44,829 nt of DNA. It comes from a virus. This document shows, one piece after another, positions 14,748 through 25,435 of the stretch. Made by a program: the position numbers and the translations under genes. Location: IMG/VR virus record IMGVR_UViG_3300044293_000415, positions 1-44,829 of that record; one strand, written 5' to 3'. A model generated the notes under the pieces. The model was not told the DNA's origin and did no database searches. It saw only the letters and a list, made by a program, of their open reading frames with translations. The first letter of the stretch is position 1. Each line of letters opens with the position of its first letter.

Positions 14748-15082
14748 TCCGACACCTCGCAGGCGGCCTGAACGGAATCGACAGCAAGGCGCATGGATTG
14801 ACGCATCTCTCCATTGTCGGTCCATCGTTCCAGCTTCAGCTTGCCGATGACCAGAACGGGTGTCCCGTGCCTTACGGCCTCCATGTCCTCGGCAACGCGG
14901 CCCCACGCACACAACTCGAATTCATCGTGTGATTCCTCGTAAAGCCCCGTATCGGGGTTATGCCACCCCCTCGGCACTGAAATCACGCGCCGACAAAGCA
15001 GTGTTCCCGTGCGGGTTTCCTTCATTCGCGGATCGGTCACAAAGGCACCGAACAGCTTCCATTCATTCAATTTCACACTCAT
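14744..15082 (-). CDS. Single-stranded DNA-binding protein (OB fold)
   Basis: A 112-residue protein with OB-fold order: NEWKLFGAFVTDPRM, then RRVISVPRGW, ELCAWGRVAEDMEAVRHGTPVLVIGKL, and LERWTDNGEMRQSMRLAV. The AWGRVAE...V..G..V.V.GKL pattern is diagnostic for bacterial/phage SSB. No acidic C-terminal tip (DDIPF) is present, so it may not recruit host SSB partners. The start overlaps the helicase stop by 4 bp. Confidence 0.85.
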   Translation of the reverse strand: MSVKLNEWKLFGAFVTDPRMKETRTGTLLCRRVISVPRGWHNPDTGLYEESHDEFELCAWGRVAEDMEAVRHGTPVLVIGKLKLERWTDNGEMRQSMRLAVDSVQAACEVSE

Positions 15083-17238
15083 TTTTTGACCACGAATTTG
15101 TTACCAGTCTCGATCAGGCACCCCAGAGACCTGTAGCTGGCCATCCGTTTCTTCGCCTGACGCTCCGCTATTGGATGGAATCTGTCGGCGAAATCAAGTA
15201 TCGTCGCCAAGTTTTTTCCCGGAAAACTCCGAAGCACGCGGCTCGCACGCTGGATCGTCTTCTGCGAAGACCTCCCGCCGCTCACCATCACCAACATCTC
15301 CGCATTTGGCAGATCAAGCCCTTCGTCGGCCAAGGAAGTGGCCACGATGCACTTCAAATCTCCTGCACGGAAAGCATTCACAATCTCGCGACGCGACTTT
15401 CTGGATACGCTTGAATGCAGCAGTGCAGAACCGGGTATCTTTCGTTCGTATTCCTCGCCAAGCGTCACGCGAGGCACAAGGACGAGCCGCTGCGAATCCG
15501 GATGGCTGTTCGCATAAGCCACGCAGGCGGCGTTGCGCGTCACGTTGGCCGCAATGCCGATGTCAACGATGGACTCCCAAGCACACATCGCTTGCAGTTC
15601 CTCTTTCGGAACCCTCATGTACCGAGACCGAGCCGACATCAGCCGCTCGATATTCATGTCGATTCGCCTGTCCAGCCCCCCATCGGTGTCGTCGCGCCAG
15701 ACGAGCTTGGCGTCCGCAAGTGATTCACCGATCTCGTCGCGGCTGATCTCGAAAATCTTCGGGAACATCTCCCTCAACGCCGCATTGCGATCCACGTCCC
15801 GGTCATGCCAGGGGGTTGCATCAAGCCCAAACCAAAGACCGGGACATGAGCGTATGTTTCTGGACCAAATTTCAGCCGGTGCGTGCTTGCAGTTATGAAC
15901 AAGCACCTGTCGTCCGCCTGTTCCTACAAAGAAGTTTTCGTTTCCTTCAATCGAGAGATTGTAAACGAAATGGTCTCCCGCCATTTGCTTTCTCCACCGA
16001 GGATCTCCTTGTTGGAGAATCTCAACACTGTCCAGCCTAGATTGGACAACGCCTTTCCCTTCTTCGCGTCCCTCTCCTTCACCAGCCCTGAATTGTGAGA
16101 GGATCCGTCCACCTCGATTGCCAGCATCGTTTCTAGGCAGGCCAAATCCACCTTGTAGCAATTCGGAACACACTGAACGCCACAGCCAGCCGTTGCGATT
16201 GCGTGTTCCATTTTGAAGCCAAACTCCAAGGCGAGTTTTTTCTGGGCTTCTGTCGGCCCCCTTCCGTTGCCGCCAATTACAACCGGCCTGTGATTGATCC
16301 CCCTTAACGACCTGGAAATCTTCAATCTGGTTTCGTCCGAAACCTTCCTCGCCTTCATCCACTCCGAAATTCTTGGCCCCATTCTCTTGTTTGTTTCCGA
16401 CATCCGCTCTGAACTCATTTTTGAAACCATCAAATCCCTGCATTTCTCGCTGCAATAAGCACGACCGCGACGAAATGCATCCAGACTCTGGTAAGACGGA
16501 TTCAGGTTTGAGCACTCCACCTGAATTGAGCACCAAGCGCAAACCGACTGAACACGCCTCCTTCGCTGATTCCGAAAATCCGCGAAGCATTCCGAGCAGA
16601 TTGGACGCCTTGTTTTTGAAAAATGACCACCGCGTTCGATTCCAGTTTTGCAGACACGACAGCATTCCATTTTCATAAGGTGGAATGGTAAGCAGTGATG
16701 CCCCGGCGTCCAGCGATAATGCTGGCGAGTACGTTCCATCGTTCCAAAACGGATGATTTGGAGTGGAGAAAACCTGTGTGCCGGAATAGGAAACGACGCA
16801 TAGTGGGCCGTTGTGTCGTGTCTTGAAGACATTCAAAACGCGCCTTTTCTCTACAAGGCCAGTTTTGTGATTGAACGAATCAACCATGTCGCCTTTTTTA
16901 ACCCTGCTGATTTGAATGCCAGACACCACTGTTTCTGGCGGAAAGCATTCATCGACTACCAGGAAGTCGCAGTCGCTGAATGTCACACTTTCGTGGGGGC
17001 AGCGCACTGTCACTCTGTCCAATATGGATGCCCTTCCGAGCGCAATCCTCGCCTGGTCGCAGGTGTCGAGCGTTGGCGCAAGCCATCCAGCCTTTGTGCC
17101 GACAGCCAGTTCCAGGTGGTGTTTCAGGATGTTTGCAGCAATCACCGTCTTGCCGCTTCCTGCCGGAGCAATGATTAATCCGCCACCGGAAGTCTTTGCC
17201 CACTCAACCGCAGCCCGCTGGTAGGAACGAAGTGTCAT
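15079..17238 (-). CDS. SF2 DNA helicase interrupted by an intein
   Basis: A 719-codon frame. Extein residues 1-97 and 450-719 form a DEAD/ResIII-type SF2 helicase: APAGSGKT (Walker A, about 24-31), VVDE|CKH (motif II), GLDATPW (471-477), ATSLADEGLDLP (633-644) and QRASRVLR (663-670, motif VI). Residues 98-449 are a complete intein beginning with Cys98 and ending His448-Asn449 before Cys450. Removing it restores DECKHAPAEIW, a DEAH-like box. The mature helicase would be about 367 residues. It probably acts in branch migration or replication restart with the adjacent SSB and RuvC-like protein. The inserted region also encodes a separate endonuclease in another frame. Confidence 0.9.
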   Translation of the reverse strand: MTLRSYQRAAVEWAKTSGGGLIIAPAGSGKTVIAANILKHHLELAVGTKAGWLAPTLDTCDQARIALGRASILDRVTVRCPHESVTFSDCDFLVVDECFPPETVVSGIQISRVKKGDMVDSFNHKTGLVEKRRVLNVFKTRHNGPLCVVSYSGTQVFSTPNHPFWNDGTYSPALSLDAGASLLTIPPYENGMLSCLQNWNRTRWSFFKNKASNLLGMLRGFSESAKEACSVGLRLVLNSGGVLKPESVLPESGCISSRSCLLQREMQGFDGFKNEFRADVGNKQENGAKNFGVDEGEEGFGRNQIEDFQVVKGDQSQAGCNWRQRKGADRSPEKTRLGVWLQNGTRNRNGWLWRSVCSELLQGGFGLPRNDAGNRGGRILSQFRAGEGEGREEGKGVVQSRLDSVEILQQGDPRWRKQMAGDHFVYNLSIEGNENFFVGTGGRQVLVHNCKHAPAEIWSRNIRSCPGLWFGLDATPWHDRDVDRNAALREMFPKIFEISRDEIGESLADAKLVWRDDTDGGLDRRIDMNIERLMSARSRYMRVPKEELQAMCAWESIVDIGIAANVTRNAACVAYANSHPDSQRLVLVPRVTLGEEYERKIPGSALLHSSVSRKSRREIVNAFRAGDLKCIVATSLADEGLDLPNAEMLVMVSGGRSSQKTIQRASRVLRSFPGKNLATILDFADRFHPIAERQAKKRMASYRSLGCLIETGNKFVVKK
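15892..16947 (-). mobile_element. Intein in helicase motif II
   Basis: A 352-residue Hint-type intein. Block A is CFPPETVVSG at the N-terminus. Block B, GTQVFSTPNHPFW, contains the T-x-x-H motif. Block F is VYNLSIEGNENFFVG, and block G is VLVHN followed by Cys+1. All splicing residues (Cys1, block-B His, penultimate His, terminal Asn, Cys+1) are present, so it should splice. In-frame residues between blocks B and F do not look like a DOD or HNH endonuclease: they are Gly/Arg/Gln/Asn-rich with no motif. That stretch is the alternate-frame reading of the nested nuclease gene. Confidence 0.9.
15924..16676 (-). CDS. Nested Vsr/DUF559-like homing endonuclease in alternate frame of intein
   Basis: A 250-residue protein encoded wholly inside the intein, one base out of phase with it. 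It has zinc knuckles C6xxC9/C27xxC30 and C46xxC49/C75xxxC79. A NUMOD3-like helix follows at about 101-126 (ISEWMKARKVSDETRLKISR). A Vsr/PD-(D/E)XK-type nuclease core comes last: KVD177, EVDGSSH (188-194), RD203, KK, GWTVLRFSN (214-222). The codons before its stop double as intein block F. The first plausible ATG is 16676 or 16670, with only a weak ribosome-binding site. It would cut intein-free alleles of the helicase gene to drive homing. The frame extends upstream without a stop to 16832, but the conserved part starts at the zinc finger. Confidence 0.85.
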   Translation of the reverse strand: MKMECCRVCKTGIERGGHFSKTRRPICSECFADFRNQRRRRVQSVCAWCSIQVECSNLNPSYQSLDAFRRGRAYCSEKCRDLMVSKMSSERMSETNKRMGPRISEWMKARKVSDETRLKISRSLRGINHRPVVIGGNGRGPTEAQKKLALEFGFKMEHAIATAGCGVQCVPNCYKVDLACLETMLAIEVDGSSHNSGLVKERDAKKGKALSNLGWTVLRFSNKEILGGESKWRETISFTISRLKETKTSL

Positions 17239-20895: not shown

Positions 20896-21762
20896 TCACA
20901 ATCCGCACATGCCTTCACACTCGTTTACGAACCCCATTTCGTACTGCGTCCACGCGGACTGCGGTTCGTCGATGGGGGCTTGATTTAATGGCAAACAAGA
21001 CCTGTGGAGATACAGCTTCTCCTCCAATCCCCGCGCACACACAGATGCCGTAGAGCGGATGGCCTCGTCGATTTTGAGAGCCCGATTCCAGCCTTCCGGA
21101 TCATTGTCCCGAAGCGACCGCCACTCCTTGTTGCTCTTGTACGGACAGAAGACGCACGCAGAGCGTGGGACAATGTGGGGTATGCCGTAGCGTTCTAGGT
21201 ACTTGACGCAATGAGTCCGCGTCAGCCTGGAGTCGTAGAGTGGGAAATGTGGGGTCGATTTCCCATCACTGATCAAGCGTTCGCGGACCTTCAAGACCCG
21301 CCGCCCCTCGTCAAAGGACAACCCGAAATACTGATGGACCTCTACGTCCTTCGGCCAGCGCTGACGAGGCTGTAGCCCAAGGATTTCCTGCCGGATAGTC
21401 TTCTCAACAACCTCGATCTTAAACTCCTTGGTGCATTGCCGACGCACTATTCCGCCCGGCTTTCCGGGAACGCTTGAAGTGAAAGCCGGTATGGAGGCAA
21501 CCCTCTGTCCTGTGGAGTTTGTGCCACGAACCAAAGACTCGCTCAGGGTGATCCCCTTGCTTCGGATCAAGACAGGGAATGACGGGGAGACCTCGCGAAC
21601 AAGCCACTCCAGATGATCGTACACGGATCGCGGCTCATCCCCAACGTCCGCGAAGATAGCGCAGGTGAATTTGGGAACTCCAAACTCACGGCGATGGGAT
21701 ATGAGGGCGAGCGCCGTTGACTGAATTCCGGCCCCAAGGTTGAGGATATGGTGGGTGCTCAC
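20896..21762 (-). CDS. PAPS-reductase-like PP-loop protein with four conserved-position Cys
   Basis: A 288-residue protein from a GTG start at 21762 that overlaps the upstream stop (GTGA). ILNLGAGIQSTALAL is a PP-loop (N-type ATP pyrophosphatase) motif. DEPRSVYDHL, RRQCTKEFK (C110), C185 and SACVFCPYKSNKEW (C203, C206) follow the PAPS/APS reductase layout. The Cys quartet could hold an Fe-S cluster. Phage proteins of this type are common and their true reaction is unclear; sulfur transfer or DNA/RNA thiolation are options, and sulfate reduction in the host pathway is unlikely. Confidence 0.75.
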   Translation of the reverse strand: MSTHHILNLGAGIQSTALALISHRREFGVPKFTCAIFADVGDEPRSVYDHLEWLVREVSPSFPVLIRSKGITLSESLVRGTNSTGQRVASIPAFTSSVPGKPGGIVRRQCTKEFKIEVVEKTIRQEILGLQPRQRWPKDVEVHQYFGLSFDEGRRVLKVRERLISDGKSTPHFPLYDSRLTRTHCVKYLERYGIPHIVPRSACVFCPYKSNKEWRSLRDNDPEGWNRALKIDEAIRSTASVCARGLEEKLYLHRSCLPLNQAPIDEPQSAWTQYEMGFVNECEGMCGL

Positions 21763-24155: not shown

Positions 24156-25340
24156 TTAAAGGGGGTTCAAAAGTTCTGCGAAAAGTGTCCGAAACGCGAT
24201 CTCCGCAGTGGCCGGGACTACCCCGTTGCCGAGGAGTCGGAGTTCGTCGGTTCGATTGTCACCGGCGACGTACAGCTCGGCATGGTCCAGCCGACTGGAA
24301 GCCCCATAAGCGTCTCCACCCAGCGGGGGTTGAGTTTCGCGTTGTTGATTCCCATCTTCGCGCTCATTTCCCTGCGGAATTGGCCGCTCATTTGTCCGTG
24401 GGACTTTTCCCCAAGTCCGACAAGCGGTGTCGGCCATTGCTGAATTTGAATTGCCAGCGGAGTTCCCGACCCATTCCCATTCCGATGCTTCTCCTTGTTC
24501 AAGGCTTGGCGCCTGTTCCAACTCTCTAGCGTCTCCATTTCGTTTGGATTCGATGCACACGGCGTGGCCCACTGCTTGACCTGTGCCGTCAGCGGCATCG
24601 TCGAGACGTCGCCTCTCCTTTGTCTCTCGGCCCATGTTTCGGGATTCTCGTCCGTCGTCTTTCCGGCCCTCGGTGTCGCCCACTGCTTTGACAGTCCTTG
24701 GTGGCTCCCATTCGTGCTGTGGTTGTCCCGGGCGGGATGGCCAACATGGACTGCTCTGGCTAGCAGACAGTTCACCGGGACATTTGCGCAGGATTGTGCT
24801 GTGCCATCCTTCCAGTCCCGCGCTGTTGCAGTGGGCCAGGATGAAGACCCGCTTCCGCTGGTGCGGAGCGCCGACTTCAGACGCGCTGAATATGCCCCAC
24901 GTCGTTCTGTAACCCAGTCTTCCCAGGTCCTCAATGACGTCGCGCAACCCCAAGCTGATATGTCCTTCGACGTTCTCGAAGAAGCAGAGCCTAGGTCGCA
25001 TGGCAGCAATTCCATCTGCGATCCAAGGCCAGAGGTGGCGGGGGTCGTCCTTGCCAGCCCGCTTGCCGGCTGCGCTGAATGGCTGGCAGGGGTAACCTCC
25101 AGTGAGGATGTCCACGCCGCCACGAAACGATCCCCAAGGGAAGGTTTTAAGATCCGGCCAGATAGGTGCCGGGTCCATGAGTCCCGCTTCCATTTTTGCG
25201 ACCAAGTTCGCAATGGCAAACGCTTCGATCTCACAAAGAGCGACTGAGCGCAGATTTGGGACGACTCGCTTGAGTCCAAGCTCAATGCCTCCGTATCCAG
25301 CGCACAAGCCGACGTGTGTAACTGCCTTGGTAGAATCCAT
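24156..25340 (-). CDS. C5-cytosine DNA methyltransferase, large (alpha-like) frame
   Basis: A 394-residue frame. LCAGYGGIELGLKR (motif I), GGYPCQPFSAAGKRAG with the catalytic PCQ at 84-86 (IV), FENVEGH (VI, ENV 122-124), GAPHQRKRVFILA (VIII) and RLLGNGVVPATAEIAFRTL (X) are all present. Motif IX and a TRD-like region are not convincing here: the segment from 175 to 355 is low-complexity. Motif IX lies instead in an overlapping frame. The enzyme would transfer methyl from SAM to cytosine C5. This is the two-polypeptide arrangement known from M.EcoHK31I. Confidence 0.85.
   Translation of the reverse strand: MDSTKAVTHVGLCAGYGGIELGLKRVVPNLRSVALCEIEAFAIANLVAKMEAGLMDPAPIWPDLKTFPWGSFRGGVDILTGGYPCQPFSAAGKRAGKDDPRHLWPWIADGIAAMRPRLCFFENVEGHISLGLRDVIEDLGRLGYRTTWGIFSASEVGAPHQRKRVFILAHCNSAGLEGWHSTILRKCPGELSASQSSPCWPSRPGQPQHEWEPPRTVKAVGDTEGRKDDGRESRNMGRETKERRRLDDAADGTGQAVGHAVCIESKRNGDARELEQAPSLEQGEASEWEWVGNSAGNSNSAMADTACRTWGKVPRTNERPIPQGNEREDGNQQRETQPPLGGDAYGASSRLDHAELYVAGDNRTDELRLLGNGVVPATAEIAFRTLFAELLNPL
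24218..25015 (-). CDS. C5-methyltransferase motif-IX (beta-like) frame, overlapping
   Basis: An open frame inside the alpha gene, shifted by one base pair relative to it. It carries SGSGSSSWPTATARDWKDG, repeats of W-x-T-P (QWATPRAG, QWATPCAS, QWPTPLVG), and LNPRWVETLMGLPVGWT (24284-24334), which is C5-methyltransferase motif IX. In M.EcoHK31I and M.EaeI the beta polypeptide begins inside the alpha gene in another frame and supplies motif IX. Start is uncertain: ATG 25015 gives 265 residues, and the frame is open up to 25345. Ribosome binding is weak. It stops just inside the region encoding alpha motif X. Confidence 0.65.
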   Translation of the reverse strand: MELLPCDLGSASSRTSKDISAWGCATSLRTWEDWVTERRGAYSARLKSALRTSGSGSSSWPTATARDWKDGTAQSCANVPVNCLLARAVHVGHPARDNHSTNGSHQGLSKQWATPRAGKTTDENPETWAERQRRGDVSTMPLTAQVKQWATPCASNPNEMETLESWNRRQALNKEKHRNGNGSGTPLAIQIQQWPTPLVGLGEKSHGQMSGQFRREMSAKMGINNAKLNPRWVETLMGLPVGWTMPSCTSPVTIEPTNSDSSATG

Positions 25341-25435
25341 GTCATTGTTTTCCGTTTTTGTTGTTCTGAATTTTCACCACATACTCATTCGCTTCCTGTA
25401 ATCCACTTGGAACGACGTAATCACATTGTCTGCTT

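Follow-up and report, generated by a model that had tools for sequence, protein, structure and literature searches.

A phage helicase intein with a putative homing endonuclease gene nested in its +1 frame

In the textbook intein, the splicing and nuclease domains form a single in-frame composite. In classical large inteins such as PI-SceI and PI-PfuI, the HINT domain is interrupted by an in-frame homing endonuclease, which forms part of the intein polypeptide. The EDxHD nuclease family is also known to contribute homing enzymes, e.g. I-Bth0305I, which is encoded by a group I intron (PMC3943268, together with general knowledge). Out-of-frame HNH endonucleases have been described in phage DNA methylases, where they are found in the ShiLan domain and in the insertion of Pacc40 gp60 (Arsenault, Gosselin and Gogarten, 2025; PMC11855218). 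The ShiLan insertion is reported to be neither an intein nor an intron, and it is not removed (PMC11855218). Searching the literature for intein nucleases encoded out of frame brought up the ShiLan paper alone; a preprint of 2025 that it cites, on non-canonical inteins of actinobacteriophages, lay outside the search.

The phage locus described here resembles ShiLan in that the host frame stays open through an insertion with an out-of-frame homing-type endonuclease, and in its apparent spread between phages. Unlike ShiLan, which has an HNH nuclease and no intein motifs, it has a carrier with full intein splicing blocks and a nuclease of the DUF559/EDxHD type; the nested intein also spans several host protein families and has a doubly constrained 3′ tract. 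As in PI-SceI and PI-PfuI, the HINT domain is split between blocks B and F by a homing-type nuclease, and the insertion site is a motif conserved in an essential-type enzyme. However, the nuclease is here in the other frame, and its place in the intein polypeptide is taken by an unrelated linker that is predicted to be disordered. By sequence profile the catalytic domain belongs to the same family as those of I-Bth0305I (3r3p) and the DUF559 protein 3hrl, but unlike I-Bth0305I the window gene lies out of frame within an intein, and a zinc-finger-like CxxC region precedes its catalytic domain.

The favoured reading, to which a probability of about 80% is given, is that of a mobile intein whose homing endonuclease gene is carried out of frame and not as an in-frame domain. 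It joins computed properties, i.e. the nesting, the fixed phase, selection in both frames and the mobility pattern, to splicing, separate initiation and cleavage, which we infer.

The helicase intein and its nested gene

The window is the whole 44,829-nt stretch of IMG/VR record IMGVR_UViG_3300044293_000415. Its minus strand, on which all features of the locus lie, has a 719-aa open reading frame (15079–17238) for a phage SF2 (ResIII/Helicase_C) helicase that contains an intein, with Pfam matches to Helicase_C (E 9.5e-14), ResIII (1.5e-5) and Intein_splicing (3.9e-4). The N-extein (16948–17238) ends with FLVVDE at Walker B, the C-extein (15079–15891) starts with CKHAP, and the intein splits the helicase within the Walker B motif, after DE and before C (FLVVDE^CKHAP).

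The intein (15892–16947) is 352 aa in length, with C1 at 16947 and N352 at 15892, and shows the class 1 motifs C1, T62xxH65, H351-N352 and a +1 Cys. Block residues are conserved in alignments; T6, H65, H351 and N352 are invariant. Structural modelling, with alignments from which loci retrieved only by annotation were excluded, predicts a HINT fold for the N-terminal half (residues 1–90; 16677–16947; pLDDT 96–98) and for the C-terminal half with blocks F and G (residues 301–352; 15892–16047; pLDDT 93–98). The middle (16048–16676) is predicted to be a disordered linker in the intein frame (pLDDT about 36–66) and is the nuclease in the +1 frame (mean pLDDT 85.7). The best PDB matches of the intein model are inteins or BIL structures (2lwy, NpuDnaB and other HINT structures, E about 2e-4). 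An empty-site allele in a Vibrio phage close to K391 (L170) reads QDE^CHHV and is rejoined exactly at DE^C. The carrier appears to be an intein of class 1 type that is presumably spliced.

A DUF559 (EDxHD/Vsr-like) nuclease of ~250 aa is entirely nested in the intein open reading frame, one base out of phase (15924–16676; PF04480, E 1e-12). Its putative start is at 16676 (ATG AAA ATG); the +1 open reading frame extends over 15924–16832, with further in-frame ATGs at 16739 and 16832. The DUF559 catalytic core is at 15972–16163 (Pfam match, residues 224–287 of P0002). All 82 aligned nuclease relatives match PF04480, and in alignments of 77–82 diverse sequences D176, H193 and D202 are invariant, with E187 and D189 near-invariant. 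Foldseek places 3hrl and 3r3p among the top matches of the nuclease model at weak E values (0.014–0.018). Since the fold search gave no match below E 0.001, the DUF559/EDxHD assignment is based on sequence profiles (3hrl, 7.5e-13; 3r3p, 0.0086). The window protein may be an EDxHD homing endonuclease that would cleave intein-less alleles site-specifically.

Elsewhere on the minus strand of the window, at 24156–25345, the open reading frame of a C5 DNA methylase (394 aa) shares about 1.1 kb with another long open frame on the same strand (375 aa). The 375-aa frame has no Pfam match, and its second half had no tblastn match in phages. A phosphoadenosine phosphosulfate reductase gene (20896–21762, minus strand; phrog_424, E 1.3e-39) is found beside RecT-like and exonuclease genes.

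Fixed phase and selection in both frames

Single-sequence searches of viral contigs found no relatives of the window nuclease and only two distant ones of the helicase, and alignments were used for searching because these queries found so little. A nuclease profile search that was blind to frame retrieved 37 viral and 41 genomic loci, and a profile of the intein N-terminus, blind to the nuclease, retrieved 79 viral loci. In addition, tblastn of phage genomes detected relatives in Vibrio, Pseudomonas and Corynebacterium phages. Both profile searches and the phage records, with duplicates removed, give 89 distinct loci that carry intein and nuclease. The nuclease phase is +1 in all 89; in-frame and +2 variants were sought and none was found. 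In no locus does the nuclease share the frame of the splicing blocks, as it does in large inteins with an in-frame endonuclease. In all five phages inspected (CP-T1, MR14, 104E43.1, phi673 and K391), one annotated CDS, recorded as helicase or hypothetical protein, holds the nuclease in its +1 frame.

The proteins that carry the intein include SF2 helicases, SNF2-type proteins (among them N6 methylase fusions), an XPD-like helicase and DnaX. The intein is at or adjacent to Walker B, and the DE^C site is common to most of the 89 loci. The DnaX cases (L059, L060 and L061) are clamp-loader genes of bacterial metagenome-assembled genomes from Bacteroides, Clostridia and Lachnospiraceae, apparently outside phage helicases. 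Four shortened inteins of 168–200 aa (L065, L120, L126 and L140) have a nested nuclease that consists of the catalytic core only, minus the zinc-finger-like and linker parts. Mini-inteins at L100 and L154 keep block F and have no nuclease, and deletion forms at L114 and L129 retain only the nuclease C-terminus; the nuclease region is thus dispensable for the splicing domain. In the nuclease tree, where the deep order is not resolved, the window protein is on a long branch with no close kin, and free-standing relatives fall within the nested set with modest support. Three relatives (L011, L018 and L049) are free-standing genes directly upstream of intein-less helicases. At L018 (4093–5623) the intein-less phage helicase beside the free-standing relative is disrupted by a frameshift exactly at the DE^ Walker B site, the insertion point of the intein in related loci; faulty repair of a cut may have caused it, or else an error of assembly.

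Selection was assessed by shuffling synonymous codons within each sequence, with the nuclease amino acids and codon counts fixed. The intein frame of the window has 0 stops vs 11.1 expected over 199 codons, and none of 1000 shuffles was stop-free. For 46 loci together the shuffles predict 362 intein-frame stops and not a single one occurs, whereas the third frame has 655 vs 576 predicted. The overlap of the frames is not due to chance.

Codon-position variation identifies the protein under selection. Across 42 loci, variation at intein codon positions 1/2/3 is 0.50/0.42/0.70 in the N-terminal splicing part, highest at position 3, whereas in the nested part it is 0.48/0.41/0.64 at nuclease positions 1/2/3, with the maximum at the third (intein position 1). 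The close pair L166/L167 differs at 75/41/261 sites of the extein (intein codon positions 1/2/3) and at 31/3/0 of the nested part. Substitutions in the nested part are strongly nuclease-synonymous; selection there is thus on the nuclease protein, and all that is required of the intein frame is the absence of stops. Structure prediction is concordant, as the nested bases are modelled as a confident fold when read as nuclease and with low confidence when read as intein.

Strict co-inheritance of nuclease and splicing domain receives no special support from distance correlations, which are 0.30 for nuclease and intein, lower than the 0.42 for nuclease and extein. The idea that the intein frame was favoured for hydrophilicity was dropped, as both alternative frames average a GRAVY of -0.97. 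The nested gene also does not qualify as a de novo overprinted gene, because homologues of both folded proteins exist without the overlap, as free-standing DUF559 genes and as mini-inteins; only the intein-frame linker is frame-derived.

How would two proteins be made from this DNA? Ribosomes on the helicase would traverse the nuclease region in the intein frame and produce a roughly 200-residue unstructured linker between the splicing halves; the intein would then excise itself, and the helicase would be rejoined at the Walker B motif. Just past the N-terminal splicing half, separate initiation within the intein would yield a free DUF559/EDxHD nuclease. The free nuclease would cut intein-less alleles at the Walker B codons, and repair would copy the intein in. 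At the 3′ end, ~90 nt would be needed by both proteins, as the strand and last helix of the nuclease and as the splicing strand and start of block F.

Separate initiation is the simplest reading of the junction sequences. A Shine-Dalgarno-preceded ATG is present there in the nuclease frame at 31 of 44 loci, whereas the third frame has one at 2 loci and the intein frame at 6 (Fisher p 1e-4); among the candidate nuclease starts examined in the window, none has a convincing ribosome-binding site. The latter, and the finding that the nuclease frame is often open for some distance upstream of the conserved core, would also fit a nuclease fused to the N-extein and N-terminal intein half via programmed +1 ribosomal frameshifting. 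In general this is rather improbable, given the Shine-Dalgarno-ATG enrichment and the existence of free-standing relatives (L011, L018 and L049) as separate genes; moreover, no conserved slippery site was noticed in an unsystematic inspection. It may nonetheless hold for loci that lack a good start.

It may also be asked whether only the intein still matters, the +1 nuclease being a dead remnant or an in-frame domain that was frameshifted. Decay is indeed seen in some relatives (L114, L129, L100 and L154). Nevertheless, the conserved catalytic residues in 77–82 diverse sequences and nuclease-synonymous substitutions even in the close pair (31/3/0) make this very improbable; in addition, no in-frame ancestor was found, and a single phase is common to 89 loci, which include complete genomes of isolated phages. 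Those genomes also bear on an assembly or sequencing artefact. Single-base errors are able to shift domains out of frame, yet independent genomes, including the isolated phages CP-T1, MR14, phi673, K391 and 104E43.1, have the same phase with both frames open, and an artefact can be given almost no weight.

The shared 3′ end

The initial annotation described 48 bp in which intein block F and the nuclease C-terminus share the same bases, and this is borne out on the minus strand: FVYNLSIEGNENFFVG is encoded at 15922–15969 in the helicase/intein frame, and SFTISRLKETKTSL plus TAG at 15924–15968 in the +1 frame. The overlap extends well beyond 48 bp, since the entire nuclease (15924 to about 16676) sits inside the intein open reading frame. 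The further claim that the nuclease end is constrained to evolve around block F holds for the first ~19 nt of the 48 bp and not for the remaining tail, where third bases are free.

Alignment of homologues, the check that had been proposed for both frames, places the double constraint at roughly 15951–16037, about 87–90 nt from nuclease 'GW' to 'TISR', and finds none downstream. This tract (~87 nt, with limits set by homology with relatives) comprises nuclease GWTVLRFSNKEILGGESKWRETISFTISR, an intein strand and the start of block F. Here the nuclease strand and last helix coincide with the splicing-domain strand and block F start. Third-base heterozygosity at nuclease fourfold sites is 0.34 at 7 sites in the tract (last ~131 nt) vs 0.71 at 35 sites upstream, with a p of 1.5e-7 that is indicative, as related sequences were treated as independent. 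Neighbouring sites of the same sequences serve as internal control for the third-base tests. In a matched-residue test, third bases are frozen at block F codons -24 to -17 (counted from the intein end) and not downstream. Thus Val at codon -21 is GTC in 67 of 75 sequences, while the third base is free at Val -16 (20A/40T/19C/1G) and at Val -3 (36T/15A/11G/24C); likewise Gly -23 is GGT in 51 of 54, and Gly -6 is free. In the nuclease frame, these frozen bases are second positions of the TV(M/L)STISK codons.

The stop codon behaves differently from the tract. It is found at discrete scattered sites, the earliest 65 nt ahead of the intein end and the latest 37 nt beyond it, and it is TAG in 73 of 89 loci because blocks F and G have V, I and L codons ending in TA ahead of G-initial codons. 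In the window the TAG (15924–15926) consists of Val GTA plus the G of Gly in the intein frame. Free third bases downstream, together with scattered stop sites, suggest that the last 27 nt (15924–15950), which encode the tail LKETKTSL and the stop, are probably an incidental read-through of block F. At one locus, unique among the 89, the nuclease frame is unstopped at the intein end and enters the C-extein by 37 nt (L110, 3535–4566).

Could the 48-bp overlap itself be functional, with selection on the nuclease tail where it runs over the later half of block F? The last nuclease helix of the window (15930–15986) is predicted with good confidence to residue 248, which would favour such a role. 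It is nonetheless unlikely, because codons -15 to -9 are equally free at the third base whether the nuclease is open (diversity 0.58) or already stopped (0.62), and because stops scatter over about 100 nt at sites set by block F/G codons. The precise nuclease border that had been placed at block F is correct for the fold, as the DUF559 match reaches 15972 and the last helix ends nearby, and not for the stop, which has no fixed position. Relatives with block F intact and an early nuclease stop had been named as a sign of incidental overlap; the nuclease stops of L060 and L061, at 65 and 62 nt, coincide with the beginning of block F, and no intact nested locus stops well before it. Block F is kept without any nuclease in two mini-inteins, L100 and L154.

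Mobility and significance

Vibrio phages with helicases 92–94% identical to that of K391 have an empty site (L170), a mini-intein or the nested intein; the mini-intein alleles (L168 and L171) are of another lineage. L008 and L166 differ at 246 of 1632 nt in the extein (15%) and at about 28 of 1065 in the intein (2.6%). This lower divergence indicates that the intein moved after the helicases diverged or was homogenized by conversion. Presence/absence polymorphism and low intein divergence are consistent with homing, although the low divergence could in part reflect constraint or ordinary recombination. The suggestion of long co-evolution rather than recent insertion combines two matters: the pairing of intein and nuclease is old and conserved, with the same phase in 89/89 distinct loci, whereas the presence of the intein in a given helicase can be recent, as in this Vibrio phage pair.

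Two other Vibrio phages have unusual arrangements. In PS65A.1 (L169, 301–3432) the helicase apparently has two inteins, a large one at Walker A that ends ..VTHN^TVVAAEL and a mini-intein at Walker B. In K459 (L171, 2382–2592) a gene annotated as endonuclease is directly downstream of the mini-intein helicase, and it might drive the mini-intein in trans.

It is likely, if somewhat less so than the reading of this single locus, that these elements constitute a widespread and previously unrecognized class of phage and bacterial inteins, in which the homing endonuclease is a separate +1-nested gene, splicing and homing are decoupled at translation, and the nuclease 3′ end and the intein strand and block F form one ~90-nt double-coding tract under joint selection. 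The nested gene is unannotated in the inspected phage records ('helicase' or 'hypothetical protein'), and such inteins have therefore probably been overlooked. The allele series of the Vibrio phages (empty, mini-intein and nested) makes homing directly testable, and the tract, in which one set of bases serves two folds, lends itself naturally to studying the tolerance of overlapping coding. With the two functions in separate genes that share DNA, nuclease dose and intein splicing would be independently controllable, and the nuclease would no longer need to fold within a precursor protein.
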